Source of the DNA: Pseudomonadaceae bacterium
GTDB taxonomy: Bacteria; Pseudomonadota; Gammaproteobacteria; Pseudomonadales; Pseudomonadaceae
Assembly (NCBI GenBank): GCA_030602315.1
Contig: JAUVZY010000008.1
Coordinates: forward strand, 1-64,000
Direction: 5' to 3'
DNA: 64,000 bases
How positions within the stretch are numbered: position 1 is the stretch's first letter; the number at the start of each line of letters is the position of its first letter. Made by a program: the position numbers and the translations under genes. The notes beneath the pieces were generated by a model. The model had not been told where the DNA came from and did no database searches. It saw nothing but the letters and a program-made list of their open reading frames with translations. Positions 36,580-54,712 of this stretch are shown here, in pieces.

Positions 36580-36608
36580 TTGCCTGGCATCGGGCGCCTC
36601 TGGATAAT
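36580..36608 (+). promoter_or_regulatory. Candidate promoter of the aryl polyene operon
   Basis: TTGCCT (36580-36585), a 17-base spacer and GATAAT (36603-36608) lie about 88 bases upstream of the first cluster gene. It is the only clear promoter-like pair in the 190-base gap after trxC. Confidence 0.5.
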
Positions 36609-36663
36609 GCCGCGCATTCCAATGGGTTAACCGATGCTTGAACTAACAGGGACGTCAGCACGC

Positions 36664-36688
36664 CACCTTCGCCGTGCGGCGAAAGGTG
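36664..36688 (+). promoter_or_regulatory. Hairpin covering the ribosome binding site of the first pigment gene
   Basis: CACCTTCGCC (36664-36673) pairs with GGCGAAAGGTG (36678-36688), leaving one unpaired base and a GTGC loop. The right arm contains the AAAGGTG ribosome binding site, 7 bases before the GTG start at 36696, so the site would be masked when the stem forms. Confidence 0.5.
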
Positions 36689-36695
36689 TATCCGC

Positions 36696-37412
36696 GTGAT
36701 CCGCTTCGAGATCGAGCAATGGCGTGCCTGGGCGCCCGGGCTGGAAGATGCAGGCGCCTGGCGCGCATGGTCGCAAGCGCCCTGCCGCCCCGCCAGCGAC
36801 GACGCCCAGCCCGACGTCGGCTTCCTCCCCGCAATGCAGCGCCGCCGCTTGAGCCGGCTGGCGCGCATGGCCTTCGCCGTCGCCACCCCGCTGGCCGACG
36901 GCCAGCCGCCGATGCCGCTGGTGTATTGCTCGCGCCACGGCGACACCGCGCGCGGCCTGGCCCTGTTCGAGGCGCTGGCGCGGGAAGAACCCCTCTCGCC
37001 CACCCACTTCAGCCTCTCGGTACACAACGCCATCATCGGCCTGTGGTCGATCCAGCGCGGCGACACCAGCGAGATGACCGCCCTGGCCGCCGAGGGCGAC
37101 GGCCTCGAGCACGCGCTGCTGGAAGCCGCCGGCCTGCTCGCCGAGGGTGCACCACAGGTGCTCCTGGTGATCGCCGAAGACAGCCCGCCGCCGCTCTACC
37201 GGCCGTGGATCGACGATGTGCCCTTCCCCTACGCCCTCGCCCTGCGCCTCGCTGCCGGCGACGGCTGGGCGCTTGCCCTGACACCGGGCGTCGAGGCCGC
37301 GCCGGCCGAATGGCCGCACGCGCTGGAACTGATCGCCCACCTCAATGGAATGCCCGGCGTCCGCCGCCTCTGCTGGAAGCACCGCACATGGACCTGGCAA
37401 CGCCACCGCTGA
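36696..37412 (+). CDS. apeC: Ketosynthase-like chain length factor of aryl polyene synthesis
   Basis: 238-residue protein of the Ketoacyl-synt_2 (PF13723-like) family: a shortened KS fold with no catalytic cysteine, carrying the FLPAMQRRRLSRLARMAF and LSPTHFSLSVHNAIIG signatures. In Xenorhabdus the homologue is the inactive partner of the ketosynthase ApeO, and together they extend the polyene. It begins with GTG at 36696 and overlaps the next gene by 25 bases. It is the first gene of the cluster. Confidence 0.86.
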   Translation: MIRFEIEQWRAWAPGLEDAGAWRAWSQAPCRPASDDAQPDVGFLPAMQRRRLSRLARMAFAVATPLADGQPPMPLVYCSRHGDTARGLALFEALAREEPLSPTHFSLSVHNAIIGLWSIQRGDTSEMTALAAEGDGLEHALLEAAGLLAEGAPQVLLVIAEDSPPPLYRPWIDDVPFPYALALRLAAGDGWALALTPGVEAAPAEWPHALELIAHLNGMPGVRRLCWKHRTWTWQRHR

Positions 37413-38194
37413 AGCGCCCCGACGCGCCCTGGACGTGGCGGCTGATCGCCACCGGTCTGTCCTTCGCCCTGTTCGGCCTCGGCGGGCTGTTCCTGCGCGT
37501 GGCGGTATTCCCGCTGCAGGCGCTGCTGCCCGGCGATGCCGCGGTACGCCGGCGCCGCGCCCGGCACACGGTCAGCCGCAGCTTCTGGGCCTTCGTCCAG
37601 TTCATGTACCGCACGCGCGTGCTGACCTACGAGGTCGAGGGCGCCGAGCGCCTCGGCCGCCCGGGTCAGCTGATCATCGCCAACCACCCCTCGCTGATCG
37701 ACGTGGTGCTGCTGATCGCGCAGATCCGCGACGCCAACTGCGTGGTCAAGCAGAGCCTGTGGGACAACCCCTTCACCCGCGGCCCGGTCCGCGCCGCGCA
37801 GTACATCAGCAACGACGGCAGCGCCGAGATGCTCGATGCTGCCGCCGACGCCCTGAAGGCTGGCCAGACGCTGATCATCTTCCCCGAAGGCACCCGCACC
37901 ACCCCCGGCGAACCGCCTCGCTTTCACCGCGGTGCGGCGGCCATCGCCCTGCGCGGCGCCCGCGTGGTCACCCCAGTCACCATCAGCGTGACGCCGACCA
38001 CCCTGACCAAGGCCGAGCCCTGGTACCGCATTCCGCCGCAGCGCGTGCACTTCCAGCTGCGGGTGGGCGCCGACATCGACCCGCAAGCCTTCGCCGCACG
38101 CGGCCCGGCGCCGATCGCCTCGCGCCAGCTCAACGATTACCTGCATCGACACTTCATGAAGGAGCTCGCCCTAGATGAGCCAACTGCAGCTTGA
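37388..38194 (+). CDS. apeD: 1-acyl-sn-glycerol-3-phosphate acyltransferase-like (PlsC) protein
   Basis: 268-residue membrane acyltransferase. The HX4D motif is in NHPSLIDV and the substrate-binding FPEGTRT motif follows; a hydrophobic N-terminal segment covers about residues 17-45. In aryl polyene clusters such enzymes are thought to attach the polyene or an acyl chain to the lipid anchor. Start ATG at 37388 lies inside the 3' end of apeC and the stop overlaps the first ACP by 20 bases. Confidence 0.87.
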   Translation: MDLATPPLKRPDAPWTWRLIATGLSFALFGLGGLFLRVAVFPLQALLPGDAAVRRRRARHTVSRSFWAFVQFMYRTRVLTYEVEGAERLGRPGQLIIANHPSLIDVVLLIAQIRDANCVVKQSLWDNPFTRGPVRAAQYISNDGSAEMLDAAADALKAGQTLIIFPEGTRTTPGEPPRFHRGAAAIALRGARVVTPVTISVTPTTLTKAEPWYRIPPQRVHFQLRVGADIDPQAFAARGPAPIASRQLNDYLHRHFMKELALDEPTAA

Positions 38195-38438
38195 GATCAA
38201 GCAACTGATCATCGACGCCCTCGGCCTCGAGGACATCACCCCGCACGACATCGCCGCCGACCAGCCGCTGTTCGGCGACGGCCTCGGCCTGGACTCGGTG
38301 GACGCCCTGGAGCTGGGCCTGGCGATCCAGAAGCGCTTCGGCATCAAGATCGACGCCGAAGCCAAGGACACCCGCAAGCATTTCGCCAGCGTGAACAGCC
38401 TGGCCGCCTTCGTCGACGCCGCCAAGGCGGTTGCCTGA
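38175..38438 (+). CDS. apeE: Acyl carrier protein 1
   Basis: 87-residue ACP with phosphopantetheine serine S41 in GLGLDSVDALELG. The DSVD motif and the spacing fit the APE carrier that receives the aryl starter. No dedicated phosphopantetheinyl transferase gene is visible in the cluster, so a housekeeping enzyme would be needed. It overlaps apeD by 20 bases. Confidence 0.92.
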   Translation: MSQLQLEIKQLIIDALGLEDITPHDIAADQPLFGDGLGLDSVDALELGLAIQKRFGIKIDAEAKDTRKHFASVNSLAAFVDAAKAVA

Positions 38439-38457
38439 AAGCAAGGAGGAAGCCAAC

Positions 38458-38715
38458 GTGAATAGCCGTGACGACATCTTCCAGACCCTGCGCGATGCCC
38501 TGGTGGAACTGTTCGAACTGGACCCGGCGAGCATCTCGCTGGAAGCCAACCTCTATCAGGACCTGGAAATCGACAGCATCGACGCCGTCGACCTGATCGA
38601 CCATATCAAGCGCCAGACCGGCAAGAAGCTCGCCGCCGAGGAGTTCAAGGCGGTGCGCACCGTGGGCGACGTGGTGGAAGCGGTGTACCGCCTGATCCAC
38701 CCGGAAGTCGCCTGA
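38458..38715 (+). CDS. apeF: Acyl carrier protein 2
   Basis: 85-residue ACP with serine S40 in DLEIDSIDAVDLID. It starts with GTG at 38458, preceded 8 bases upstream by AAGGAGG, the best ribosome binding site in the cluster. A longer frame from 38431 is possible but lacks this support. Its sequence differs clearly from the first ACP (DSID against DSVD), which argues for distinct partners rather than a recent duplication. Confidence 0.92.
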   Translation: MNSRDDIFQTLRDALVELFELDPASISLEANLYQDLEIDSIDAVDLIDHIKRQTGKKLAAEEFKAVRTVGDVVEAVYRLIHPEVA

Positions 38716-38735
38716 AGCGCCGACGACGCCCGACG

Positions 38736-39305
38736 ATGACGCCCCTGACCACCTCCGCCCTGCCCGGCCGTCTGCTGGCCGGCGTGCTGCTGCTGGCGGG
38801 CCTGGCCTGGCCGTTCGCCGTGTACCTGGGCAGCGAGGCGCTCTCGCCGCGGCTGTTCGCCGTGCTGCTCGGCGGGCTGTGGCTGGCGCGCCTGGCCTTC
38901 GCCCGCGCCCAGCCCGGCGGGCACTGGACCAGCCTGGCCGCGCTGGCCTTCTGTGCCGTGCTGGCGCTGGCCGATATGCCGGAGCTGCTGCGCTGGTATC
39001 CGGTGCTGCTCAGCCTGACCCTGCTCGGACTGTTCGCCGCCAGCCTCGCCAGCACCCCGCTGATCGAACGCCTGGCCCGCCTGCAGGAGCCCGAGCTGCC
39101 GCCGGCGGCGGTGCGCTACACGCGCCAGGTGACCTGGGTGTGGATGGGCTTCTTCGCGCTCAACGCCGGCATCGCCGCGAGCCTCGCAGTGTGGGCGCCG
39201 CTGGCCTGGTGGACGCTGTACACCGGGCTGATCGCCTATCTGCTGATGGGCCTGCTGTTTGCCGGCGAGTGGCTGGTGCGCCAGCGGGTGAGGAGACGTA
39301 CATGA
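38736..39305 (+). CDS. apeG: Aryl polyene cluster membrane protein (COG4648-type)
   Basis: 189-residue inner-membrane protein with about five or six hydrophobic segments (first near residues 12-32, last near 155-175) and no soluble domain. Its position between the ACPs and the ligase is the usual one for this family in ape clusters. Its role is unknown. The stop overlaps the ATG of the next gene (ATGA). Confidence 0.8.
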   Translation: MTPLTTSALPGRLLAGVLLLAGLAWPFAVYLGSEALSPRLFAVLLGGLWLARLAFARAQPGGHWTSLAALAFCAVLALADMPELLRWYPVLLSLTLLGLFAASLASTPLIERLARLQEPELPPAAVRYTRQVTWVWMGFFALNAGIAASLAVWAPLAWWTLYTGLIAYLLMGLLFAGEWLVRQRVRRRT

Positions 39306-40984
39306 GCTGGATTCCCCTGCAGGCACTGCTCGCCCGGCCGGCCGACGCGCGCCCGGTCACCCTCACGCCACGGCTCGACCACGCCGACCTGCAGACCCGC
39401 GCGCTCGCCCTGGCCGGCGGCCTGGCCGCCCGCGGCGTACGCGACCTGGCGGTGCATCTGGAGGACGCCGGCGAGCTGGCCATCGCCCTGCTCGGCGCCT
39501 GGCGCGCCGGCGCCCGGGTGCTCCTGCCGGCGGACCTGCAACCGGCCAGCCGCGCGCGCCTGGCCCCGGCGGTGGAGCTGTGGCTCACCGACCAGCCCGG
39601 CGACACGCCGCTCGATGCCCTGCTCGGCGAGCCGCTGCCGGCGGCCGAACTCGACCCCGCGCACGAGGGCCTGCTGATCGCCACCTCCGGCTCCAGCGGG
39701 CAGAGCAAGCTGATCGGCAAGCGCCTGGCGCAGCTGGCCGGTGAACTGGAAATCCTCGAAGAGTGCTGGGGCGCCCGGCTGGGTACTGCGCAGGTGCTCG
39801 GCAGCGTCTCCACCCAGCACCTCTATGGCCTGTTGTTCCGCCTGCTCTGGCCGCTGTGCGCCGGTCGCCCGCTGGGTGCCCGCGCGCTGCCGTTTGCCGA
39901 AGACCTGCAGCAGGCCAGCCTCGTTGCCGGCGAGCGCGGCTTTGCCTGGGTGGCCAGCCCGGCGCTCCTGAAACGCATGGGCGACAACCTCGACTGGCCG
40001 GCGCTGGCCGCCGTGCGCCGGGTGTTTTCCTCCGGCGGCCCGCTGCCGGCCGAAGCCGCCGAGCGGCTGCAGCAGCGCCTGGGCCAGTACCCGGTCGAGG
40101 TCTACGGCAGCTCGGAGACCGGCGGCATCGCCTGGCGCCAGGGCGGCCAGGCCTGGACGCCGCTGCCGGGCGTGGCCATCGACCAGGACGGCGACACCGG
40201 CGCCCTGCACGTGGCCTCGCCCTGGCTGGCGGGTGCCGGCGAGCCGACCGCCGATGCCGTCAGCCTGCTGGCGGACGGCCGCTTCCTGCTCAAGGGCCGG
40301 CTCGACCGCATCGTCAAGCTGGAAGAAAAACGCATCGCCCTGCCGATGCTGGAAGCGGCGCTGGCCGAGCACCCCTTCGTCGCCGAGGCACGCCTGGGCG
40401 TGGTGCAGGAAAACCGCGCCTCGCTCGGTGCGCTGGTCGCGCTCTCCGCCGCGGGCCTGCACGCCCTGCGCAACGGTGGCCGCCGGGCGCTGACCGACAC
40501 CCTGCGCCAGCACCTGGCCGGGCATTGCGAGGCGCTGGCCCTGCCGCGGCGCTGGCGGCTGCTGCCGCAGCTGCCGGCCAACCCCCAGGGCAAGCTGCCC
40601 CAGGCCGAAGTCGAGGCACTGCTCGCCGCGCCGCGGCCGAAGACGCCCGAGCGCCTGGCTCAGCACGAGCAGGACGGCCAGTGGCAGCTGACGCTGCGCG
40701 TGCCGCTCGATCTGGCCCACTTCTCCGGCCACTTCCCGCAGACCCCGGTGCTGCCCGGGGTGGTGCAGGTGGACTGGGCGCTGCAGCTGGCACGCACGCT
40801 GCTGCCGCTGCCGGCGCACTATCGCGGCATGGAAGTGCTGAAGTTCCAGCAACTGATCCGCCCCGGCGACCACATCGCGCTGACCCTGCGTTTCGATGCC
40901 GCGCGCGGCAAGCTCTATTTCGCCTTCAGCCAGGACGACAAACCCTGCTCGTCCGGCCGTATCCTCCTTGGAGATGCCGCATGA
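39302..40984 (+). CDS. apeH: Aryl-acid AMP ligase fused to a hotdog dehydratase
   Basis: 560-residue two-domain protein. Residues about 1-450 form an adenylating enzyme with the P-loop ATSGSSGQSK (about 126-135), the YGSSETGG A5 motif, a GRLDRIVKLEEKRI A8 region and a conserved lysine in NPQGK. Residues about 455-560 are a FabA/FabZ-like hotdog domain with HFSGHFPQTPVLPGVVQVDW, where the first histidine of the motif would be catalytic. In Xenorhabdus these are described as separate genes (ligase ApeH and dehydratase ApeI), so here both steps sit in one chain: starter loading on the ACP and dehydration. The ATG at 39302 is chosen; the frame extends upstream antisense-free but without family similarity. 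Confidence 0.88.
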   Translation: MSWIPLQALLARPADARPVTLTPRLDHADLQTRALALAGGLAARGVRDLAVHLEDAGELAIALLGAWRAGARVLLPADLQPASRARLAPAVELWLTDQPGDTPLDALLGEPLPAAELDPAHEGLLIATSGSSGQSKLIGKRLAQLAGELEILEECWGARLGTAQVLGSVSTQHLYGLLFRLLWPLCAGRPLGARALPFAEDLQQASLVAGERGFAWVASPALLKRMGDNLDWPALAAVRRVFSSGGPLPAEAAERLQQRLGQYPVEVYGSSETGGIAWRQGGQAWTPLPGVAIDQDGDTGALHVASPWLAGAGEPTADAVSLLADGRFLLKGRLDRIVKLEEKRIALPMLEAALAEHPFVAEARLGVVQENRASLGALVALSAAGLHALRNGGRRALTDTLRQHLAGHCEALALPRRWRLLPQLPANPQGKLPQAEVEALLAAPRPKTPERLAQHEQDGQWQLTLRVPLDLAHFSGHFPQTPVLPGVVQVDWALQLARTLLPLPAHYRGMEVLKFQQLIRPGDHIALTLRFDAARGKLYFAFSQDDKPCSSGRILLGDAA

Positions 40985-41814
40985 GCGAGACCTGCGACCT
41001 GGCCCCTGCCCAGCAGGCGCTGCCCCTGGCGCCGATCCCTGCCGCTACCGCCCGCGTGCCCGCCGCCCCCGAGCAGGACTGGTTCAAGCCCTGCGCGGTG
41101 ATCCCGGTGTACAACCACGAGACCACCCTGCCCACGGTGCTCGCCGCGCTGCGCGCCGAGGACCTGCCCTGCGTGCTGGTGGACGACGCCTCGCGCCCGC
41201 AAGCGGCTGCGGTGATCGACGCACTGGCCGCACACCCGGACGTGCACCTGGTCCGTCACGCGCACAACCAGGGCAAGGGCGGCGCAGTGCAGAGCGGCCT
41301 GCGCGAGGCAGCGCGCCTCGGTTACTCGCATGCGCTGCAGGTGGATGCCGACGGCCAGCACGATCTGACCGACATCGGTCTGTTCCTCGACCGCGCCTGC
41401 CAGGCGCCGGAGGCGGTGGTCTGCGGCTATCCGCGCTACGACGCCAGCATCCCCAAGGGCCGCCTGTACGGACGCTACCTGACCCACATCTGGGTGTGGA
41501 TCAACACCCTGTCCGGCGCCATCCGCGATTCGATGTGCGGCTTTCGCGTCTATCCGCTGCCGGCCACCGTCGCGCTGCTCGAGCGCGAGCGCCTCGGCCG
41601 GCGCATGGATTTCGACGTGGAAGTGCTGGTGCGCCTGCACTGGGCCGACCAGCCGATGGTCTGGCTACCGACCCGGGTGCACTACCCGGAGGACGGCGTT
41701 TCGCACTTCCGCCCGTGGCAGGACAACTGGCTGATCTCCAAGATGCACGCCCGGCTGTTCTTCGGCATGCTCGCCCGCGCGCCGCAGCTCATCGCCCGCC
41801 GGTTCGCCCGATGA
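40981..41814 (+). CDS. apeJ: Family 2 glycosyltransferase of the aryl polyene cluster
   Basis: 277-residue GT2 enzyme: CAVIPVYNHETTLPTVL nucleotide-sugar binding start, the metal motif in LQVDADGQHD, and an acceptor region with SGAIRDSMCGFRVYP. It probably adds a sugar to the lipid anchor or the polyene. The start overlaps the ligase stop (ATGA) and the stop overlaps the next gene (ATGA). Confidence 0.88.
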   Translation: MSETCDLAPAQQALPLAPIPAATARVPAAPEQDWFKPCAVIPVYNHETTLPTVLAALRAEDLPCVLVDDASRPQAAAVIDALAAHPDVHLVRHAHNQGKGGAVQSGLREAARLGYSHALQVDADGQHDLTDIGLFLDRACQAPEAVVCGYPRYDASIPKGRLYGRYLTHIWVWINTLSGAIRDSMCGFRVYPLPATVALLERERLGRRMDFDVEVLVRLHWADQPMVWLPTRVHYPEDGVSHFRPWQDNWLISKMHARLFFGMLARAPQLIARRFAR

Positions 41815-42734
41815 GCACGCGCCAGAGCAGCCACTGGGCCGCGCAGCGCGAGCGCGGCAGCTACACGCTGATGCGCCTGACCGCCTGGGCGGTGCGAAGG
41901 CTCGGCCGCGGGCCGATGGCGCCGCTGCTGTACCTGATCGTCAGCTACTTCTACCTGTTCGGCCGCCGGGCGCGCCTGGCCGCCCGCGACTACCAGACCC
42001 GTCTGGCCACCTTCGCCGGCCGCGAGGCGCTGATGCCCACCGCCCGCTCGGTGCACCGCCAGTTCATGGCCTTCGCCGACGCCCTGCTGGACAAGCTGGA
42101 CGTCTGGAACGGCCGGCTCGGCCCCGAGCAGATCGTCCTCGACGACCCGGCCGGACTGCACCGCCAGCTCGCAGGCAGCCGCGGCCAGCTGCTGGTCGGC
42201 GCCCATCTGGGCAACCTGGAGGTCTGCCGTGCGCTGGCCGAGACCCGTCAGGTGCGCATGAACGTGCTGGTGCACACGCGCCACGCCGAGCAGTTCAACC
42301 GCCTGCTGGGCGAGGCCGGGGCACAGAACCTGCGGCTGATCCAGGTCAGCGAGCTGGACCCGGCGATCATGCTGCAGCTGTCGCAGCGCCTGGAGCGCGG
42401 CGAGTGGCTGGCCATCGCCGGCGACCGCATCCCGCTGCACGGCGGGCGCACCAGCACCGTCGACTTTCTCGGCGCGCCCGCCGAATTTCCCCAGGGCCCC
42501 TGGCTGCTCGCCGGCCTGCTGGAGTGCCCGGTCAACCTGCTGTTCTGCCTCAAGCACGGCGCGCACTACCACCTGCACCTGGAGCCCTTCGCCGAGCGCA
42601 TTGCCTGGCGCCGCGCCGAGCGCGAGGCGGTGATCGCCCGCCACGTGCAGGCCTACGCCGACCGCCTGGCCGCGCGCTGCCTGGAGGCGCCGCTGCAGTG
42701 GTTCAACTTCTACCCGTTCTGGAAACACCCATGA
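41811..42734 (+). CDS. Lipid A biosynthesis-type (LpxL/LpxM) acyltransferase
   Basis: 307-residue acyltransferase with the HX4E motif in GAHLGNLEVCRALA (about residues 124-137) and a hydrophobic N-terminal segment near 38-56 (PLLYLIVSYFYLFG). Later GDRIPLHGG and FNFYPFW blocks are typical of cluster members. In other ape loci the glycosyltransferase and acyltransferase are one fused protein; here they are two overlapping genes. It could acylate the glycolipid anchor of the polyene. Confidence 0.86.
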   Translation: MSTRQSSHWAAQRERGSYTLMRLTAWAVRRLGRGPMAPLLYLIVSYFYLFGRRARLAARDYQTRLATFAGREALMPTARSVHRQFMAFADALLDKLDVWNGRLGPEQIVLDDPAGLHRQLAGSRGQLLVGAHLGNLEVCRALAETRQVRMNVLVHTRHAEQFNRLLGEAGAQNLRLIQVSELDPAIMLQLSQRLERGEWLAIAGDRIPLHGGRTSTVDFLGAPAEFPQGPWLLAGLLECPVNLLFCLKHGAHYHLHLEPFAERIAWRRAEREAVIARHVQAYADRLAARCLEAPLQWFNFYPFWKHP

Positions 42735-44269
42735 GCAACGCCTCACCGGTGGTCTTCGGCGACCGCCACCTGTCCATCGAAGACATCCTCGCCGTGGCCG
42801 AGCGCCGCGCCCCCGCGCGGCTGGAAAGCGACGCCGCCTTCCGCGAGCGCATCGCCAAGGGCGCACGCTTTCTCGACAGCCTGCTCGACCGCGAGGGCGT
42901 GATCTACGGGGTGACCACCGGCTACGGCGACTCCTGCGTGGTGGCCGTGCCGCTGCAGCAGGTCGAGGCGCTGCCCAGGCACCTGTTCACCTTCCACGGT
43001 TGTGGCCTGGGCAAGCTGCTCGAGCCGGCCGCCACCCGCGCGGTGCTGGCGGCGCGGCTGCGCTCGCTGACCCACGGCGTGTCCGGCGTGCGCGTCGAGC
43101 TGCTCGAGCGCCTGCAGGGCTTTCTCGACCACGACATCCTGCCGCTGATCCCCGAGGAAGGCTCGGTGGGCGCCAGCGGCGATCTCACCCCGCTGTCCTA
43201 TGTCGCCGCCACCCTCGCCGGCGAGCGCGAGGTGCTCTACCAGGGCGAGCGCCGCCAGGCCGGCGAGGTGCAGCGCGCGCTGGGCTGGCAGCCCCTGACC
43301 CTGCGCCCCAAGGAAGCCCTGGCGCTGATGAACGGCACCGCGGTGATGACCGGCCTCGCCTGCCTGGCCTACGCCCGCGCCGACTACCTCTTGCAGCTCG
43401 CCACGCGCATCACCGCGCTCAACGTGATCGCGCTGGAGGGCAACCCGGAACACTTCGACGAGCGCCTGTTCGCCGTCAAGCCGCACCCGGGCCAGTCGCA
43501 GGTCGCCGCCTGGATCCGCCAGGACCTGGCGATCGACGCGCCCACCGCGCCGCTGCATCGCCTGCAGGACCGCTATTCGATCCGCTGCGCGCCCCACGTG
43601 CTGGGTGTGCTGGCCGACAGCCTGGGCCTGCTGCGCCAGTTCATCGAGACCGAACTCAACAGCGCCAACGACAACCCGATCATCGACGCCGAGCAAGAGC
43701 GCGTGCTGCACGGCGGGCACTTCTACGGCGGGCACATCGCCTTTGCCATGGACAGCCTGAAGAACCTGATCGGCAACGTCGCCGACCTGCTCGACCGCCA
43801 GCTCGCCCTGCTGGTGGACGCGCGCTACAACCACGGCCTGCCGAGCAACCTGTCCGGCGCGCCGGCGGCCACGGCGATGCTCAACCACGGCTTCAAGGCG
43901 GTGCAGATCGGCGCCAGTGCCTGGACTGCCGAGGCGCTGAAAAACAGCCTGCCGGCCAGCGTGTTTTCCCGTTCCACCGAATGCCACAACCAGGACAAGG
44001 TGAGCATGGGCACCATCGCCGCCCGCGATGCGCTGCGCAGCCTGGAGCTCGCCGAACAGGTCGCCGCCGCCACCCTGCTCGCCGCCCAACAGGGCGTCTG
44101 GCTGCGCGGCCAGCAGGCCGATGCCCGCCCGCTGCCGCAGCCGCTGGCACGCATGCACGAGCAACTGGCCGAGGACTTCGCCCCGCTGATCGAGGACCGC
44201 GCCCTGGAAGGCGAACTGCGCCTGTGCCTGGCGCGCATCCGCAGCCGCCACTGGGGGCTGTATGCGTAA
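42731..44269 (+). CDS. Aromatic amino acid ammonia-lyase (HAL/PAL/TAL family)
   Basis: 512-residue MIO enzyme. The autocatalytic MIO triad is A148-S149-G150 in SVGASGDLTPLSY. Y59 of YGVTTGYG is the catalytic loop tyrosine. The pair that selects the amino acid reads F88-H89 in HLFTFHGCG: phenylalanine resembles PAL, and the following histidine resembles HAL (Tyr lyases have H-L there), so selectivity is not decided by sequence. The position inside a pigment cluster points to production of a cinnamate- or coumarate-type starter rather than histidine catabolism. A housekeeping hutH would not be expected here. Confidence 0.87.
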   Translation: MSNASPVVFGDRHLSIEDILAVAERRAPARLESDAAFRERIAKGARFLDSLLDREGVIYGVTTGYGDSCVVAVPLQQVEALPRHLFTFHGCGLGKLLEPAATRAVLAARLRSLTHGVSGVRVELLERLQGFLDHDILPLIPEEGSVGASGDLTPLSYVAATLAGEREVLYQGERRQAGEVQRALGWQPLTLRPKEALALMNGTAVMTGLACLAYARADYLLQLATRITALNVIALEGNPEHFDERLFAVKPHPGQSQVAAWIRQDLAIDAPTAPLHRLQDRYSIRCAPHVLGVLADSLGLLRQFIETELNSANDNPIIDAEQERVLHGGHFYGGHIAFAMDSLKNLIGNVADLLDRQLALLVDARYNHGLPSNLSGAPAATAMLNHGFKAVQIGASAWTAEALKNSLPASVFSRSTECHNQDKVSMGTIAARDALRSLELAEQVAAATLLAAQQGVWLRGQQADARPLPQPLARMHEQLAEDFAPLIEDRALEGELRLCLARIRSRHWGLYA

Positions 44270-44699
44270 GCCCGGCGCGCTCTCGGTGGAGGTCGACATC
44301 CAGGTGCCGTTCTTCGACGTGGACTCGATGGAAATCGTCTGGCACGGCCATTACGTGAAGTACTTCGAGGTCGCCCGCTGCGCCCTGCTCGACCGCCTCG
44401 ACCACAACTACCGGCAGATGCGCGAGGCCGGCTACGCCTGGCCGGTGATCGACATCCAACTGCGCTACATCAGGGGCGCCACCTTCAACCAGACGATCCG
44501 CGTGCGTGCCGACCTGGTGGAGTGGGAGAACCGCCTGAAGATCAACTACCTGATCGTCGACGCGCAGAGCGGCGAGCGCATGACCCGCGGCAGCAGCGTG
44601 CAGGTGGCGGTGGAGATTGCCAGCGGCGAGATGCAGTTCGTCTCGCCGCCGGTGTTCATCGAAGCCGTGGAGAGGGCGCTGGCCGATGCGTCCGTCTGA
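44262..44699 (+). CDS. apeK: YbgC/4HBT-type thioesterase
   Basis: 145-residue single hotdog domain with the YbgC/FadM-type active-site region FFDVDSMEIVWHGHYVKYFE (about residues 17-36), where D19 and the HGxYxxYFE motif are characteristic. It likely releases or edits acyl-ACP intermediates of the pathway. Its ATG overlaps the ammonia-lyase stop by 8 bases. Confidence 0.88.
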   Translation: MRKPGALSVEVDIQVPFFDVDSMEIVWHGHYVKYFEVARCALLDRLDHNYRQMREAGYAWPVIDIQLRYIRGATFNQTIRVRADLVEWENRLKINYLIVDAQSGERMTRGSSVQVAVEIASGEMQFVSPPVFIEAVERALADASV

Positions 44700-45309
44700 G
44701 CGCCCCGCGCACGCGGCCCGGCGCGGGCTGCTTTTGAGCCTGCTGCTGATGGCGGCCTGGCCGGCCATGGCTTTCGACCTCGACGCGCTTGCCCGCCAGC
44801 TGGCCGAGCCCGCCGTCGTGCGTGGCCAGTTCGTCCAGGAAAAACACCTGCGCGGCCTGCCGCAGCCACTGGTCAGCCGTGGCCGCTTCGTGCTGGCGCG
44901 CGGCCAGGGCCTGCTCTGGCAAATCGGCGAGCCCCTCGCACTCGACTACCGGATCACCGCCCGGGGCATCGCCCAGCGCAGCGACGGCGCCTGGCAGGTC
45001 CAGCCGAACGGCGCCGGCGGCAACCGGCAACAGCAGCTGTTGCTGGCCCTGCTCGGCGGCGACATCGCCACCCTCAGCGCCGACTTCACCCCGCAGCTCG
45101 ACGGCACGGCCGAGCACTGGCGCCTGCAGCTGACCCCGCGCGGCGGCCTGCTGGCGCAGGTGTTTGAGGCCATCCGCGTGGAAGGCGGCGCCCAGGTGAG
45201 CCGTGTCGAGGTCAGCGAACGGCAGGGCGACCTCACCCGGGTCAGCCTGCCCGACAGCGCCGCCGACACGACCCTGACCGAGCAGGAGCGGCGCGACCTT
45301 GGCGACTGA
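44686..45309 (+). CDS. apeL: LolA-like outer-membrane lipoprotein carrier
   Basis: 207-residue periplasmic protein. The signal peptide covers about residues 1-34 (GLLLSLLLMAAWPAMA), and the mature part is beta-rich with LARQLAEPAVVRGQFVQEKH, the LolA-like start. It could ferry the polyene lipid across the periplasm. The ATG at 44686 lies inside the thioesterase 3' end (14-base overlap). Confidence 0.84.
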   Translation: MRPSERPAHAARRGLLLSLLLMAAWPAMAFDLDALARQLAEPAVVRGQFVQEKHLRGLPQPLVSRGRFVLARGQGLLWQIGEPLALDYRITARGIAQRSDGAWQVQPNGAGGNRQQQLLLALLGGDIATLSADFTPQLDGTAEHWRLQLTPRGGLLAQVFEAIRVEGGAQVSRVEVSERQGDLTRVSLPDSAADTTLTEQERRDLGD

Positions 45310-47632: not shown

Positions 47633-48771
47633 CCGCCCTGGCGTTCTGGCTGGCGATTGCGCCGCTGTTCTGGCTGGCGACCCGCCTCGGCCGGCGCCTC
47701 GGGCTGGTGCCGATCGTCAGCCAGCTGCTCGCCGCCTGCCTGCTGATCCCCGCGTTGCTGCTGGCCGACGCGCCGGGCCTCTCGGCCGAACTACTCGCCC
47801 CGGACTGGCTCGGCGTGCTGTACCCGCTCGCGTTCGGCCTGCTGCTGGTGCACATCCTGAGCGACATCGCCGAGCTGGAAGTCAGCACGCAAAGCCTGAA
47901 GATCGCCGTGCCGAGCTTTGCCGTGCCGTTCGCCTGCGGCCTGGCCTGCGCCGCCTGGCTGCTGCCGTGGCTGTCCTGGGCCAGCGCCATCGGCATCGGC
48001 CTGCTGTTCTCGATCACCGCGATCCCGGTGCTGTTTCTCTACCTCAGCCATATCGGCTACGACGCTCAGGCCACCCGCCGCCTGCTGCACGCGGCCGTGC
48101 TGGTGGACCTGGCCTGCTGGGGCATCTTCGGCCTGGTACAGGGCAGCGCCGCGCCGCTGACCCTGCTCGGCCCGCTGGCCGGCGCCGCGCTGCCCTGGCT
48201 GCTGCATCGCCTGGGCGTTCGCCAGCCGTTGGCCTACAGCCTGCCGTTCGTGGTGCTCTTGCCGCTGTTGCAGCTGGCCGGTTGCAATGCGCTGGTGTTC
48301 GGCATCGGCTACCTGCTGAACCTCGCCTGGCACCGCCAGCCGCTGCGCCTGCCCGGCACGCCCGAACGCTGGCAGCAGCTGCTCGGCCTGTTCGCAGTGC
48401 CGCTGATTCTCACCGTCGGCGTGCTCAAGGTCCGGCTCGACCAGAGCTGGGCTGCCGAGGCCCTGCTGCCGCTGCTGGCGCTGCTGGTCCTGCCGATCGC
48501 CAGCAAGCTGGCCGGCAACTGGCTCGGCCTGCGCTGGGCAGACCCGACCGCCCTGCCGGGCCAGCGCTGGCGCGAAAGCGTTCTGTTGAACATCCGCGGG
48601 CTGACCGAGATCGTGTTTCTCAACCTGCTGCTGGAGCATCAGCTGCTGGCCCCCTCGGCCTACCTCAGCCTGCTGCTGATGAGCCTTTTCTCGACGCTCT
48701 TGCCGATGTTGATCGGCATTCGCCCCACCCAGGGAACCATCGCCACAAGGAGCCCCCATGGCGCCGCTTGA
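47629..48771 (+). CDS. CPA2-type cation/proton antiporter inside the pigment operon
   Basis: 380-residue polytopic membrane protein with about 10-12 hydrophobic segments. The segment GLLFSITAIPVLFLYL and the C-terminal LNIRGLTEIVFLNLLLEHQLL match the CPA2 (KefB/NhaS3-like) core, where a conserved RG.TE motif is expected. It lacks any TrkA-N regulatory domain and is shorter than housekeeping Kef proteins. It overlaps both neighbours (ATGA upstream; 14 bases downstream), so it is part of the operon. Its role is unclear; it might drive export or balance protons for the exporter. Confidence 0.78.
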   Translation: MTALAFWLAIAPLFWLATRLGRRLGLVPIVSQLLAACLLIPALLLADAPGLSAELLAPDWLGVLYPLAFGLLLVHILSDIAELEVSTQSLKIAVPSFAVPFACGLACAAWLLPWLSWASAIGIGLLFSITAIPVLFLYLSHIGYDAQATRRLLHAAVLVDLACWGIFGLVQGSAAPLTLLGPLAGAALPWLLHRLGVRQPLAYSLPFVVLLPLLQLAGCNALVFGIGYLLNLAWHRQPLRLPGTPERWQQLLGLFAVPLILTVGVLKVRLDQSWAAEALLPLLALLVLPIASKLAGNWLGLRWADPTALPGQRWRESVLLNIRGLTEIVFLNLLLEHQLLAPSAYLSLLLMSLFSTLLPMLIGIRPTQGTIATRSPHGAA

Positions 48772-50008
48772 ACTGCAATCCCGTGAAGTCGTGATCATCG
48801 GCGCCGGCCCCTCCGGCGCCATCGCCGGCGCGCTGCTCAAGCGCCAGGGGCACGACGTGCTGGTCATCGAGCGCCAGGTCTTCCCGCGCTTTTGCATCGG
48901 CGAGAGCCTGCTGTCGCACTGCCTGGACTTCATCGAGGAAGCCGGGATGCTCGAGGCGGTGCAGGCGGCCGGTTTCCAGACCAAGCACGGCGCGGCCTTC
49001 GGCTGCGACGCGCGCTATACCGAATTCGATTTCCGCGACAAGTTCACCCCCGGCCATGGCAGCACCTACCAGGTGCAGCGCGCCAGCTTCGACAAGCTGC
49101 TGGCCGACGAGGCGCAAAAGCAGGGCGTGGAAATCCGCTATGAAGAGGAAGTGATCGCCGCCGATTTCAGCGGTGCGCGGCCGCAGCTCAGCGTGCGCCG
49201 GGCCGACGGCAGCGAATACCGGCTGGACGCCGCCTTCGTGCTCGACGCCAGCGGCTACGGCCGCGTGCTGCCGCGCCTGCTGGACCTCGAGGCGCCCTCG
49301 GCTTTCCCGGTGCGCCGCGCCGTGTTCACCCATATCGAGGACCGCATCGACGATCCGCGCTTCGACCGCGAGAAGATCCTGATCACCACCCATCCCGAGC
49401 TGAAGGACGTCTGGTACTGGACCATCCCCTTCAGCAACGGCCGCTGCTCGCTGGGCGTGGTCGCCGCCGCCGAGCGCTATGCAGGCCGCCCGGTGGATCT
49501 GGACGCCTGCCTCAAGCAGTTCGTCGCCGAGGCACCGAACCTGCGGCGCATCCTCGCGAACGCCGTGTGGGACACCCCGGCGCGGCTGATCGACGGCTAC
49601 TCGGCCAACGTGAAAAGCCTGCACGGCAACGGCTTTGCCCTGCTCGGCAACGCCGCCGAGTTCCTCGACCCGGTGTTCTCCTCCGGCGTGACCATCGCCA
49701 TGCGCTCGGCGAGCATGGCGGCCCACCTGCTGCACCGTCAGCTGGGCGGCGAGGCGGTGGACTGGGAGCACCAGTTCGCCCGGCCGCTCAAGCGCGGGGT
49801 GGATGCCTTCCGCGCTTATGTGGAAGGCTGGTACGACGGCAGCTTCCAGGACGTCATCTACTACGAACGCGCCCAGCCGCAGATCCGCCGGATGATCTGC
49901 TCGATCCTCGCCGGTTACGCCTGGGACGAGAACAATCCCTACGTCACCGAACCCAAGCGCCGCCTTGGCGTGCTGGCCGAGCTGTGCGCCAGCCCGGCAG
50001 GCGTCTGA
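48758..50008 (+). CDS. Flavin-dependent halogenase-like FAD oxidoreductase
   Basis: 416-residue FAD protein. The dinucleotide-binding motif is GAGPSG (15-20), followed by RFCIGESLL; the halogenase motif WxWxIP is present as W219-Y-W-T-I-P224; and K76 in TKHGAAF occupies the position of the catalytic lysine that carries hypohalite in known flavin halogenases. These three together favour a halogenase over a geranylgeranyl reductase. In xanthomonadins the aryl head is brominated, so halogenation of the pigment head is a plausible role. An AAGGAG site is 5 bases before the ATG. Confidence 0.8.
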   Translation: MAPLELQSREVVIIGAGPSGAIAGALLKRQGHDVLVIERQVFPRFCIGESLLSHCLDFIEEAGMLEAVQAAGFQTKHGAAFGCDARYTEFDFRDKFTPGHGSTYQVQRASFDKLLADEAQKQGVEIRYEEEVIAADFSGARPQLSVRRADGSEYRLDAAFVLDASGYGRVLPRLLDLEAPSAFPVRRAVFTHIEDRIDDPRFDREKILITTHPELKDVWYWTIPFSNGRCSLGVVAAAERYAGRPVDLDACLKQFVAEAPNLRRILANAVWDTPARLIDGYSANVKSLHGNGFALLGNAAEFLDPVFSSGVTIAMRSASMAAHLLHRQLGGEAVDWEHQFARPLKRGVDAFRAYVEGWYDGSFQDVIYYERAQPQIRRMICSILAGYAWDENNPYVTEPKRRLGVLAELCASPAGV

Positions 50009-50015
50009 GTCGGCG

Positions 50016-50525
50016 ATGCCTGCCCTGTTGTCTGGTTCCATGCGCGGCCGGCTGGCGCTGGCGTGCCTGGCCCTTTTGGCCGGCTGCGCCGCGCCTGCGC
50101 CGCTGCCGAGCGACGCGCCGGCCCTCACCCTGCCGCGGCAACTGCATGTGCAGCGTGAACAGGCCGGCACGCAGCGGGACTTCTTCCTGGTGATCCAGGC
50201 CGACGGCGCGGCGCTGCATTTTTCCCTGCTCGACCCGCTGGGCGTGCCGCTGGCCAGGCAACACCTGCAGGCGGGCCAGTGGCACGCCGACGGCCTGCTG
50301 CCACCCAACGCCGAGGCGCGCGTGCTGTTTGCCGCTACGCTGTTCGCGCTCACCCCGGACGCCGAGCTGACCCGCCATTACCCGGCGGCCGGCCAGCGCG
50401 GCGCACAGCGCTGGCTGCCCGGCCACTGGCGCAGCAGCCTCGACCGGCGCCTGCTGCTGCTCGACATGGGCAAAGGGCTGACCTATCGTGTCGCGCCCCT
50501 CGCGGACGGAGCCGCCTTGCCATGA
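50016..50525 (+). CDS. apeN: DUF3261-type lipoprotein of the aryl polyene cluster
   Basis: 169-residue protein with a lipoprotein signal ending in the lipobox LAGC (ALLAGCAAP), so it should be acylated by Lgt and cut by LspA. The rest is a beta-rich domain of the DUF3261 type found in ape loci. With MMPL and LolA-like proteins it forms the predicted transport path. The start could also be ATG at 50040, which gives a shorter signal peptide; neither has a strong ribosome binding site. Confidence 0.8.
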   Translation: MPALLSGSMRGRLALACLALLAGCAAPAPLPSDAPALTLPRQLHVQREQAGTQRDFFLVIQADGAALHFSLLDPLGVPLARQHLQAGQWHADGLLPPNAEARVLFAATLFALTPDAELTRHYPAAGQRGAQRWLPGHWRSSLDRRLLLLDMGKGLTYRVAPLADGAALP

Positions 50526-51721
50526 CCGCCTACCTCAATGCCCTCGGTGTGATCTGCGCCCTCGGCCACGACCAGGCCGAGGTAGCCGGGCGCCTGTTGC
50601 AGGGCGATGCGAGCGGTCTGCGCCCCTATCCGCGGGCGATCGCCGGACGCACGCTGCTGGCCGGCTCGGTGGCCGGCGGGCTGCCGCCCTTGCCCGACGC
50701 CAATGCCGCGCTGGCCACGCGCAACAACCAGCTGCTGCTCGCCGCCGCGCGGCAGATCGAGGCGCCGATCCGCCAGGCCATCGCCGACTTCGGCGCCCAG
50801 CGCATCGGCGTGGTGCTCGGCACCAGCACCAGCGGCGTGGCCGAAGCCGCCGCCGGGATCGCCGCGCATGTGCGCCAGGGCCAGCTGCCGGCCAGCTACC
50901 ACTACGGCCAACAGGAGCTGGCGGCACCGGCCGCCTTTCTCGCCGACTGGCTCGGCCTTGGCGGGCCCGCCTACGGCATCTCCACCGCCTGCACCTCCAG
51001 CGGCCGTGCGCTGCTCAGCGCGCGGCGCCTGCTCGCCAGCGGCGTCTGCGACGCCGTGCTGTGCGGCGGGGTGGACAGCCTGTGCGAGCTGACCCTGGAG
51101 GGCTTCAGCGCGCTCGAGGCCACCTGCGAGGGGCTGTGCAACCCGTTCTCGCTCAATCGCGGCGGCATCAACATCGGCGAGGGCGCCGCGTTGTTTCTGA
51201 TGAGCCGACGCCCGAACGCGCAAGCGCCGAGCATCGCCCTGCTCGGCGGCGGTGCCAGCTCCGACGCCCACCACATCTCGGCGCCCGAACCCACGGGCCG
51301 CGGCGCCCTGCAGGCGATGCGCCAGGCGCTCGCCCAGGCCGGCCTGGCGCCGGAGCAGATCGACTACCTGAACCTGCATGGCACCGCCACGCCGCACAAC
51401 GACGCCATGGAAAGCGCGGCGGTGGCGACGCTGTTCCCCGCCGGCGTGCCCTGCTCGTCGACCAAGCCGCTGACCGGCCACACCCTCGGCGCGGCCGGGG
51501 CGCTGGAGGCGGCCTTCTGCTGGCTGACCCTGTCGGCGCACAACCCGAGCGGCGCATTGCCGCCGCACCGCTGGGACGGCCAGTCCGACCCGGCGCTGCC
51601 GCGCCTGGATCTGGTCGGCCCCGGCCGCCACCTGCCGCCCCAGGGCCCGCGCCGGCTGATGAGCAACTCCTTCGCCTTCGGCGGCAACAACCTCTGCCTG
51701 ATCCTCGGAGACGCGCCATGA
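50522..51721 (+). CDS. apeO: Beta-ketoacyl-ACP synthase (elongating ketosynthase)
   Basis: 399-residue ketosynthase with a complete triad: C157 in YGISTACTSSG, H286 in NLHGTATPHND and H320 in PLTGHTLGAAG. In Xenorhabdus the homologue pairs with the chain length factor. The ATG overlaps the lipoprotein stop (ATGA). Confidence 0.92.
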   Translation: MTAYLNALGVICALGHDQAEVAGRLLQGDASGLRPYPRAIAGRTLLAGSVAGGLPPLPDANAALATRNNQLLLAAARQIEAPIRQAIADFGAQRIGVVLGTSTSGVAEAAAGIAAHVRQGQLPASYHYGQQELAAPAAFLADWLGLGGPAYGISTACTSSGRALLSARRLLASGVCDAVLCGGVDSLCELTLEGFSALEATCEGLCNPFSLNRGGINIGEGAALFLMSRRPNAQAPSIALLGGGASSDAHHISAPEPTGRGALQAMRQALAQAGLAPEQIDYLNLHGTATPHNDAMESAAVATLFPAGVPCSSTKPLTGHTLGAAGALEAAFCWLTLSAHNPSGALPPHRWDGQSDPALPRLDLVGPGRHLPPQGPRRLMSNSFAFGGNNLCLILGDAP

Positions 51722-52170
51722 TCGACTGGCCGGTTGCCGAGCTGATTCCCCATGCCGGGGAGATGATCCTGCTCGACGCCATCACCCGTTTCGACGACGA
51801 AAGCCTCGAAGCCCGCTTCACCGTGCGCGAGGGCCTGCTGCTGAGCCAGGACGACGGCCAGCTGCCGGCCTGGGTCGGCCTGGAAATCATGGCCCAGGCG
51901 ATCGCCGCCTATGCCGGCTGCCGCGCGCGGCTGGCCGGACTGCCGGTGGAACTGGGTTTTCTGCTCGGCACGCGCAGTTACCAGTGCAATGTCGAGCATT
52001 TCGCGCCGGGCACCGAACTGCAGATCGGCGTGCGCTGCTCGCTGCAGGACGATAACGGCATGGGGGTGTTCGAGTGCCATATCGCGGCGCCCGGCGTTGC
52101 CGTCGAAGCCCGCCTGAATGTGTTCCGCCCGCCCGAAGTGGCGCGCTATCTACAAGAGTCTGCCTTATGA
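51718..52170 (+). CDS. apeP: Hotdog-fold 3-hydroxyacyl-ACP dehydratase
   Basis: 150-residue protein of the FabZ-like type (ApeP in ape clusters). The catalytic-region signature PHAGEMILLDAI at about residues 11-22 contains the expected histidine, and the core continues VGLEIMAQAIAAYAG. It pairs with the ligase-fused hotdog domain as a second dehydratase in the cluster. Overlaps: ATGA with the ketosynthase and ATGA with the reductase. Confidence 0.9.
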   Translation: MIDWPVAELIPHAGEMILLDAITRFDDESLEARFTVREGLLLSQDDGQLPAWVGLEIMAQAIAAYAGCRARLAGLPVELGFLLGTRSYQCNVEHFAPGTELQIGVRCSLQDDNGMGVFECHIAAPGVAVEARLNVFRPPEVARYLQESAL

Positions 52171-52895
52171 GTGAAAGCATCCTGGTCACCGGCTCGAGCC
52201 GGGGCATCGGCCGCGCCATCGCCCTGCGTCTGGCCCGCGCCGGGCATGACATCGTCCTGCACTGCCGCAGCCGCCGCGACGAGGCCGAAGCGGTGCAGGC
52301 AGAAATTCTGGCGCTCGGCCGCCAGGCCCGCGTGCTGCAGTTCGACGTGGCCGACCGTGCCGCCTGCCGCGCCGCGCTGGAAGCCGACATCGACGCCCAT
52401 GGCGCCTACTACGGGGTGGTCTGCAACGCCGGGCTGACCCGCGACGGCGCTTTCCCGGCGCTCTCGGAGGACGACTGGGACAGCGTGCTGCGCACCAACC
52501 TCGACGGCTTCTACAACGTGCTGCACCCGCTGACCATGCCGATGATCCGCCGCCGCGCGCCGGGGCGGATCGTCTGTATCACCTCGGTCTCCGGGCTGGT
52601 GGGCAATCGCGGCCAGGTCAACTACAGCGCCTCCAAGGCCGGGGTGATCGGCGCGGCCAAGGCGCTGGCGGTGGAGCTGGCCAAGCGCCGGATCACCGTC
52701 AACTGCGTCGCACCGGGGCTGATTGACACCGACATGCTCGACGAGCAGCTGCCACTGGAAGAAATGCTGAAGATGATTCCGGCCCAGCGCATGGGCACCC
52801 CGGAAGAGGTCGCCGCGGCGGTCGCCTTCCTGATGTCGGCCGAGGCCGGCTACATCACCCGCCAGGTGCTGGCCGTGAACGGCGGGCTGTGCTGA
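52167..52895 (+). CDS. apeQ: 3-oxoacyl-ACP reductase (SDR, FabG-like)
   Basis: 242-residue short-chain dehydrogenase with TGSSRGIG at 8-15, NAG at 87-89 and the catalytic set S140, Y153 and K157, with the same spacing as FabG. It reduces beta-keto groups during polyene growth, after which a dehydratase makes the double bond. Its stop and the ATG of the next gene overlap (TGATG). Confidence 0.93.
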   Translation: MSESILVTGSSRGIGRAIALRLARAGHDIVLHCRSRRDEAEAVQAEILALGRQARVLQFDVADRAACRAALEADIDAHGAYYGVVCNAGLTRDGAFPALSEDDWDSVLRTNLDGFYNVLHPLTMPMIRRRAPGRIVCITSVSGLVGNRGQVNYSASKAGVIGAAKALAVELAKRRITVNCVAPGLIDTDMLDEQLPLEEMLKMIPAQRMGTPEEVAAAVAFLMSAEAGYITRQVLAVNGGLC

Positions 52896-54130
52896 TGGCC
52901 GGGTTCAAGCGCGTCGTCGTCACCGGCATGGGCGGCATCACCTCGTTGGGCAGCGACTGGGCCAGCATCGAGGCCAACTTCGCGGCCAACCGCAGCGGCA
53001 TCCGCCGCATGCACGAGTGGGACCGCTACAGCGAACTGAATACCCGCCTGGCCGGCCCGGTGGATGACTTCGCCCCCCCCAAGCACTGGAATCGCAAGCA
53101 GCTGCGCAGCATGGGCCGCGTCTCGCAACTGGTGGTCAAGGCCGCCGAACAGGCGCTGGCCGACGCCGGGCTGCTCGACGATCCAGGCATCCGCGACGGG
53201 CGCATGGGCGTGGCCTGCGGCTCGTCCACCGGCAGCACCGAGGAGATCAAGGCGTTCGGCAACATGCTGCTCAACGCGGTGGCCGACGGGCTCAACGCCA
53301 ACTCCTACATCCGCATGATGCCGCACACCACGGCCGCCAACGTGAGCATCTTCTTCGGCCTCACCGGCCGGGTGATTCCGACCTCCAGCGCCTGCACCAG
53401 CGGCAGCCAGGGCATCGGTTATGCCTACGAGGCAATCAAGTTCGGCCGCCTGCCGCTGATGCTCGCCGGCGGCGCCGAGGAGCTGTGCGCCACCGAGGCC
53501 ATGGTGTTCGACGCACTGTATGCCACCAGCCTGAAGAACGACGCGCCGCACACCTCGCCACGTCCGTATGACAGCGGCCGCGACGGCCTGGTGATCGGCG
53601 AGGGCGCCGGCATGCTGGTGCTGGAAGAGCTGGAGCACGCGCTGGCGCGCGGCGCGACCATCCACGCCGAGCTGGTCGGTTTCGGCAGCAATGCCGACGG
53701 CATCCACGCCACCAAGCCCGAGCAGGCCACCATGCGCCGGGCCATGGAGCTGGCGCTGCAAGACGCCGGCCTGCTTGCCGAGGCGATCGGCTATGTGAAC
53801 GGCCACGGCACCGCCACCGAACAGGGCGACATCGCCGAAACCCAGGCCACCCAGGCGCTGTTCGGCTCGCGCATGCCGATCAGCTCGCAGAAGAGCTTCC
53901 TCGGCCACACCCTCGGGGCCTGCGGTGCGCTGGAGTCGTGGTTTTCCATCGAAATGATGAACCGCGACCGCTACATCCACACGCTCAATCTCGAGGCGAT
54001 CGACCCGCGCTGCGGCGAACTGGACTATCTGGTCGGCGCGCCGCGGGCGATGCAGCACGAGTATGTGATGAACAACAATTTCGCCTTCGGCGGGGTGAAC
54101 ACCTCGCTGATCTTCCGCCGTTGGCGCTGA
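52895..54130 (+). CDS. apeR: Beta-ketoacyl-ACP synthase II-like ketosynthase
   Basis: 411-residue ketosynthase with C167 in IPTSSACTSGSQ, H304 in NGHGTATEQGD and H338 in SFLGHTLGACG. It is longer and more FabF-like than the other ketosynthase. It probably acts as the homodimeric partner enzyme reported for APE pathways. The ATG at 52895 is preferred over an in-frame GTG two codons upstream. Confidence 0.92.
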   Translation: MAGFKRVVVTGMGGITSLGSDWASIEANFAANRSGIRRMHEWDRYSELNTRLAGPVDDFAPPKHWNRKQLRSMGRVSQLVVKAAEQALADAGLLDDPGIRDGRMGVACGSSTGSTEEIKAFGNMLLNAVADGLNANSYIRMMPHTTAANVSIFFGLTGRVIPTSSACTSGSQGIGYAYEAIKFGRLPLMLAGGAEELCATEAMVFDALYATSLKNDAPHTSPRPYDSGRDGLVIGEGAGMLVLEELEHALARGATIHAELVGFGSNADGIHATKPEQATMRRAMELALQDAGLLAEAIGYVNGHGTATEQGDIAETQATQALFGSRMPISSQKSFLGHTLGACGALESWFSIEMMNRDRYIHTLNLEAIDPRCGELDYLVGAPRAMQHEYVMNNNFAFGGVNTSLIFRRWR

Positions 54131-54161
54131 CCGGCTCCTCCCACACGCAAAGGAAATCGCA

Positions 54162-54596
54162 ATGAACAAGACCGCATGGATTGGCGCAGCGCTGGCGCTG
54201 TGTGCCCTGCCCGGTGTCAGCCAGGCCCGTGACACCACCCATTACCTGCCCTTCCAGCAGGTGGTGGACGAAGCCGTGGCGGCCGGTCGCCTGGATGGCA
54301 GCGTGACGTTCCACCTGGCGCAGAATCCCGGCGGCCAGGTGCTGCGCAGCGGCGTCACCACCAGCAAGAAGACCAACGCGTTCAACAAGAGCGACGAGGC
54401 AGCCTGCAGCTGGGCGCTGCAGTCGGCGCTGATCGCGATGCAGAACGCGGCGAAGAACGCCGGCGCCAATGCCGTGGTGAACATCGCCAGCAACTACAAG
54501 CACGTCGAATACAAGGACGCCGCCAAGTACGAATGCCATGCCGGGGCGATCATGGCCGGCGTGGCGCTGAAGGCCGATCTGGCCAAGCTGCCGTAA
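54162..54596 (+). CDS. Small secreted protein at the end of the aryl polyene operon
   Basis: 144-residue protein with a signal peptide (MNKTAWIGAALALCALPGVSQA, cut near residue 22) and a conserved SAL.AMQNAAKNAGANAVVNI core with two cysteines, C81 near KSDEAACSW and one in KYECHAG, that might form a disulfide. Databases often call such proteins excinuclease subunit, which is a misnomer: there is no ATPase motif. It lies 31 bases after apeR, closely enough to be co-transcribed. Its role is unknown. Confidence 0.78.
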   Translation: MNKTAWIGAALALCALPGVSQARDTTHYLPFQQVVDEAVAAGRLDGSVTFHLAQNPGGQVLRSGVTTSKKTNAFNKSDEAACSWALQSALIAMQNAAKNAGANAVVNIASNYKHVEYKDAAKYECHAGAIMAGVALKADLAKLP

Positions 54597-54712
54597 TCCA
54601 CCGTGCGTCCTGGCATTGCAGCCGGGACGCCGGTCCCTGCGCAGGAACGTTCGCCTTGCCTGCCGAGTCTCACGGAAAACCGGCCCGCCCGAGTGCTCCA
54701 AAGGAGACGCCC

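Follow-up and report, generated by a model that had tools for sequence, protein, structure and literature searches.

The 64,000-nucleotide stretch of a Pseudomonadaceae bacterium analysed here (GenBank assembly GCA_030602315.1, contig JAUVZY010000008.1, positions 1 to 64,000; hereafter the window) carries an aryl polyene (APE) operon of 19 open genes on the plus strand, running from the GTG start of a chain-length-factor-like gene to the stop codon of a second ketosynthase gene (36696-54130) and followed on the same strand by a gene for a predicted secreted protein (54162-54596). With a probability of about 0.94, the region is the standard APE biosynthesis and export operon of the Pseudomonadaceae. 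A first-pass annotation had recognised all of these genes, and the functions it named (a fused ligase-dehydratase, separate glycosyltransferase and acyltransferase, an ammonia-lyase, a CPA-type antiporter and a halogenase-like enzyme) are correct at the level of family or fold. It had also regarded this composition as unusual. The operon is real and complete, but ordinary: the seemingly extra genes form the standard layout across many Pseudomonas.

Evidence for this comes from two samples, together comprising 100 loci. The first includes 20 genomes of the order, nine of them being all relatives positive for the CPA gene besides the window's own genome and the other 11 being hand-picked among 45 genomes, out of 194, that gave a chain-length-factor match. 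The second consists of the best 80 of 304 stretches encoding a CPA relative, found with an alignment of the CPA protein in contigs of named genomes (78 Pseudomonas, one Bordetella and one Paucimonas), so that the CPA gene, as the query, is present by construction; these stretches reach 10 kb to each side, and a single one of the 80 includes apeC. Within the reach of each locus, the window's gene order is kept in 78 of the 80 named loci, with the segment from apeD to apeR complete in 72. The ammonia-lyase gene occurs in 77, two of the three misses (L139 and L147) being cut by contig ends and the third, in Bordetella (L093), being a true absence, and the halogenase-like gene occurs in 79. Among the 11 picked genomes of the order, the lyase was found in eight, the halogenase-like gene in nine (in one case on the opposite strand, away from the operon) and the CPA gene in one. 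A single open frame holds both ligase and dehydratase in 95 of the 96 loci of both samples in which this could be tested (four were cut off), and they are split in L067. No difference in layout was found between the window and the APE Vf-like arylpolyene regions of Pseudomonas, and the CPA proteins of the Pseudomonas loci are 49-63% identical to that of the window in their best segments. Because gene order, lyase, halogenase-like gene and fusion recur across both samples, the composition, as judged from gene content, is the family norm, with the CPA gene as an optional member, and the unusual composition proposed earlier does not hold. At the level of the family, a chain-length-factor match was obtained in 52 of 119 genomes drawn from it, representing 17 of 19 genera.

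The second line of evidence is colinearity with a characterised cluster. The ape region of Escherichia coli CFT073, for which Johnston et al. (PMC8253772) list apeA-apeR and describe gene deletions, was compared with the window by tblastn. Its genes C, D, E, F, G, H, I, J, K, L, M, O, P, Q and R match the window in the same order and on one strand, making the window colinear with apeC-apeR and bearing out the resemblance to characterised ape clusters noted in the first-pass annotation.

Gene calls were based on stop-to-stop reading frames together with G+C content by codon position, followed by a check of the translations; percentages below are identities to the E. coli products. The operon opens with ApeC (36696-37412), a chain-length-factor-like ketosynthase N-terminal protein (PF13723, E 1.2e-71; 33%). 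Its ketosynthase partner ApeO (50522-51721; PF00109/PF02801; 48%) keeps the motif Cys in 99 of 99 aligned rows, and the two provide the combination of a ketosynthase and an N-terminal-only chain length factor expected of an aryl polyene type II polyketide synthase. The other biosynthetic components of an APE cluster are likewise all present by Pfam assignment: the acyl carrier proteins ApeE (38175-38438; PF00550, GLDS in 96 of 96 aligned rows; 58%) and ApeF (38458-38715; PF00550 when scanned from 38431; 58%), the AMP-dependent aryl acid ligase and ApeI dehydratase joined as ApeH-ApeI (39302-40984; PF00501 and PF22818 in one protein), the ApeP dehydratase (51718-52170; ApeP-like PF22817, E 2.8e-18), the FabG-type ketoreductase ApeQ (52167-52895; PF13561; 60%) and the second ketosynthase ApeR (52895-54130; PF00109; 55%).

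Genes for lipid attachment and export (D, J, G, L, M and N) are also represented, with N assigned by DUF3261 only. They encode a lysophospholipid (PlsC-type) acyltransferase, ApeD (37388-38194; PF01553, E 1.8e-17; colinear with E. coli apeD); a COG4648-type membrane protein, ApeG (38736-39305; no Pfam match above cut-off; 46%); a family 2 glycosyltransferase corresponding to the N-terminal half of ApeJ (40981-41814; PF00535, E 3e-17; 54% to the first part of C_RS05605) and an LpxL-type acyltransferase corresponding to its C-terminal half (41811-42734; PF03279; 38% to the second part); a LolA-like periplasmic carrier, ApeL (44686-45309; PF19574, E 1.3e-9); an MMPL/RND exporter, ApeM (45299-47632; PF03176; 29%); and the DUF3261 protein ApeN (50016-50525; PF11659), for which a LolB-like role has been proposed in print. 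The remaining members are an MIO-type aromatic amino acid ammonia-lyase proposed to supply the starter (42731-44269; PF00221, E 1.3e-158), the 4HBT thioesterase ApeK (44262-44699; PF13279; 52%), a CPA-fold antiporter-like protein assigned by predicted fold in the absence of any Pfam or NCBIfam match (47629-48771) and a flavin-dependent halogenase-like enzyme (48758-50008; PF04820, E 7e-23; WYWTIP, K76). No operon gene matched a regulator or methyltransferase model in the Pfam scan, and 15 of the 19 junctions overlap by 1-25 bases, the other four being gaps of 7-31 bases; in both respects the earlier description stands. The left end given there, 36580, is not a start codon and coincides with the -35 hexamer of a weak sigma-70-like promoter match on the plus strand (36580-36608; 9 of 12; one found versus 0.1 expected in shuffles), which is not evidence of function.

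The product of the secreted-protein gene has a sub-threshold PF01906 (YbjQ-like) match and was not among the 12 best tblastn matches to the E. coli ApeA stretch. A tblastn match to it follows apeR in the commonest gene-order patterns. The gene closes the operon in many Pseudomonas loci, and a few loci of other families have it close to the operon in divergent orientation. An open frame on the minus strand between the operon and hemE (54494-54955) has no Pfam match above cut-off, is matched in few related loci and is perhaps not a gene.

Published clusters provide further context. In Azoarcus sp. BH72, the arcuflavin (arc) clusters include arcG, annotated as a Na+/H+ antiporter, as well as the halogenase gene arcA; Pseudomonas is named among the genera with arcuflavin-type genes (PMC3949708). 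The classes common to these clusters and the window comprise a chain-length-factor-like protein, ketosynthase, ketoreductase, dehydratase, ligase, LolA, exporter, glycosyltransferase, acyltransferase, antiporter and halogenase, ArcG being likened by annotation; unlike the window, arcuflavin genes occupy two unlinked loci with XanB2, and no lyase is listed for them. Halogenase genes are described in Xanthomonas clusters and as absent in Lysobacter (PMC3691225). The flexirubin (flx) cluster of Chitinophaga pinensis uses an ammonia-lyase and a ligase as its first steps, as proposed for the window, and its lyase is a tyrosine ammonia-lyase that starts flexirubin synthesis; the product differs in being a dialkylresorcinol ester (PMC3992019). 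In addition, antiSMASH found an arylpolyene region, classed as APE Vf, in all nine potato-associated Pseudomonas genomes of one study (PMC7204214, Table 3), and one strain of P. seleniipraecipitans carries an arylpolyene-resorcinol region that is 40% similar to APE Vf (PMC12239753). Another strain of the latter species is among the named loci (L096).

These parallels raise the question of whether the product might resemble flexirubin or arcuflavin, the polyene being esterified with a dialkylresorcinol whose synthesis is encoded in another part of the genome. The start of flexirubin synthesis with an ammonia-lyase (PMC3992019) and the arylpolyene-resorcinol region of P. seleniipraecipitans (PMC12239753) are compatible with such an ester. 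However, a general Pfam scan of the 36 window proteins, which covered the window only and included no dedicated darA/darB search, recognised no dialkylresorcinol-type gene, and the operon has E. coli-like genes for lipid attachment, leaving this an improbable alternative to the standard APE operon.

A truly unusual composition defining a new APE variant is very unlikely. It draws on the comparison with E. coli CFT073, relative to which the window has additional lyase, CPA-fold and halogenase-like genes, carries as one fused gene the ligase and dehydratase that E. coli encodes as apeH and apeI, divides apeJ, and is without apeA and the methyltransferase gene apeB. The separate glycosyltransferase and acyltransferase listed earlier as a novelty are nevertheless simply the unfused halves of E. 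coli apeJ (C_RS05605). In the sampled Pseudomonas, lyase, halogenase-like gene and fusion are regular features, and all three are frequent in the wider order; the CPA gene is met repeatedly in Pseudomonas. An annotated antiporter, a halogenase and an ammonia-lyase have each been published for aryl polyene clusters, and these are not unusual members. This candidate was rejected on the gene order in the 100 loci. That the genes are housekeeping fatty acid genes, a reading suggested by the resemblance of the ketosynthases, ketoreductase and dehydratases to fatty acid synthase, has next to no probability and was discarded on Pfam families and colinearity with E. coli ape, given the ApeI- and ApeP-specific models, the chain length factor, the ammonia-lyase, the export module and a chain-length-factor match in only 52 of the 119 family genomes.

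Two observations weigh against the assignment as a standard APE operon. At E 0.01, tblastn did not connect the ApeN of the window with E. coli apeN, the DUF3261 name being all that the two have in common. Moreover, the chain-length factor was found only in the window's genome among four of its genus, the three others (one only 70% complete) giving no match.

This patchy occurrence is also visible at the genomic site. The operon sits between thioredoxin 2 and hemE, and a genome of another genus (G017) has the same neighbours on both sides of its operon; in two others (G006 and G010), hemE follows the secreted-protein gene at a distance of about 0.8 and 2.7 kb. In G003, which belongs to the same genus as the window, the thioredoxin 2 and hemE matches are about 28 bases apart (L074, G003:C85:1-9000), representing an unoccupied operon site. 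The G+C content of the operon is 71.5%, compared with 65.6% and 63.9% in its flanks. Either loss in sister species or transfer into the window's species may account for this distribution. Elsewhere, a chain-length-factor match with one in-frame TGA was seen in a 93%-complete genome (G622:C78:17677-18387) and possibly belongs to a decaying operon.

From the observed gene content, order, conservation, predicted fold and motifs, we infer every biochemical step, and the product, of the following pathway. By deaminating Tyr or Phe, the ammonia-lyase would turn an aromatic amino acid into a cinnamate-type acid, which the ligase half of ApeH-ApeI would load onto an acyl carrier protein. ApeO-ApeC, together with ApeQ, ApeP and the ApeI half, would then carry out malonyl extension to an all-conjugated polyene, with ApeR assisting, and the flavoenzyme might halogenate or oxidise the ring. 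Release of the polyene and its attachment to a lipid would be the work of ApeK, ApeD and both parts of ApeJ, and ApeG, ApeL, ApeM and ApeN would export the polyene to the outer membrane, possibly with the CPA-fold protein, absent from some members, as an accessory ion-coupled transporter of the export module. The predicted product is an aryl polyene acting as a yellow membrane pigment.

In the lyase, all 92 aligned sequences, that of the window included, keep the MIO triad (ASG), and positions 88-89, which we take to be the selectivity residues, are Phe-His (F88-H89) in the same 92; in the alignment with 2nyn, a solved phenylalanine/histidine ammonia-lyase, Phe88 faces Phe and His89 faces Leu. 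A His89Phe exchange in the Rhodobacter enzyme switches the preference from Tyr to Phe, according to a review (PMC9002059). Taken together, the residues at these positions lean towards Phe as the substrate. NCBIfam listed eight curated cut-offs for the window lyase, and its scores fall short of all of them, including that of the FlxA model of the flexirubin cluster (NF053541; 314.5 bits, cut-off 700). A Tyr/Phe/His ammonia-lyase is reported to occur in P. fluorescens R124; a literature search on lyases of that strain gave no title on that enzyme. The specificity of ammonia-lyases is not predictable from sequence, as the flexirubin authors warn (PMC3992019). Product and starter unit cannot be read from the sequence. 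In a search for chorismatase, PF21168, which presumably covers XanB2, had no match in the window's own 78%-complete genome and none in any control genome. A lack of XanB2 would not be exceptional: the E. coli pathway is predicted to draw 4-hydroxybenzoate from UbiC (PMC8253772), and a ubiC match is present in the window's genome.

Flavin-dependent halogenases are marked by a WxWxIP motif and a catalytic Lys, and the flavoenzyme of the operon carries both, with WxWxIP (WYWTIP in the window) and Lys76 each in 98 of 98 aligned rows. Its nearest solved structure is 3nix, named flavoprotein/dehydrogenase (E 5.7e-107), which is far closer than the best chain named halogenase (2.2e-43). Halogenation is a possible activity of the enzyme. 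In one otherwise standard operon (L103, Pseudomonas sp. 2FG), no halogenase-like gene lies between the CPA gene and the DUF3261 gene, offering a natural comparison for the role of the flavoenzyme.

The CPA-fold protein found no match in Pfam, NCBIfam or a PDB profile search, and sequence alone did not identify it; the fold emerged from structure prediction. An AlphaFold model built with 25 sequences (mean pLDDT 84.4) matched NapA best in Foldseek (4bwz, E 2.8e-8; KefC, 6.6e-5), and VIA-align superposed it on SOS1 (Z 29.1, root-mean-square deviation 4.9, 366 aligned) and NapA 5bz2 (Z 27.3, 4.5, 349 aligned), consistent with a NapA/NhaA-type fold in the predicted model. Canonical CPA1 and CPA2 antiporters carry an Asn-Asp or Asp-Asp pair in the ion-binding helix. 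The CPA-fold protein has the predicted fold, Asp160 and Lys293 in common with NapA, KefC and SOS1, and differs from them in the first residue of the pair: among 91 sequences, the window included, position 160 is Asp in 90 and Glu in one and Lys293 and Arg323 are invariant, whereas position 159 is Ile, Met or Val in all 91, so that the canonical pair is missing from the family. Three class-level relatives have Thr, Asp and Asn at position 159 (pairs TD, DD and ND).

With regard to distribution, a first relatives set of 36 family genomes had the CPA gene in 10 of 18 with a chain-length-factor match versus none of 18 without (chance 1.7e-4, ignoring relatedness), and the gene is for this reason an optional, APE-dedicated member in the window's family. 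When the CPA alignment was searched against the whole class, every match other than the window itself was weak (E 8.8e-12 to 9.8e-4), and these came from 11 of 369 genomes. In L061 (G017), whose operon occupies the same site, there is no CPA gene and the exporter gene is followed directly by the halogenase-like gene. It is conceivable, though rather unlikely, that the protein is a transporter repurposed for aryl polyene export or envelope loading, from a lineage-specific family in which the antiporter fold, Asp160 and Lys293 were retained and the first residue of the ion-binding pair was lost; it would work with its neighbour ApeM and perhaps harness the proton gradient to move pigment or lipid in place of Na+ exchange.

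The main value of these findings lies in correcting an over-reading, as the supposed extras are the normal Pseudomonas layout. The comparison also gives APE specialists two testable points. One is the role that an antiporter-fold protein with a broken ion-binding pair plays between an exporter and a halogenase-like enzyme. The other is whether Pseudomonas APEs, given their invariant Phe-His lyase, are built on cinnamate or coumarate and not on 4-hydroxybenzoate.

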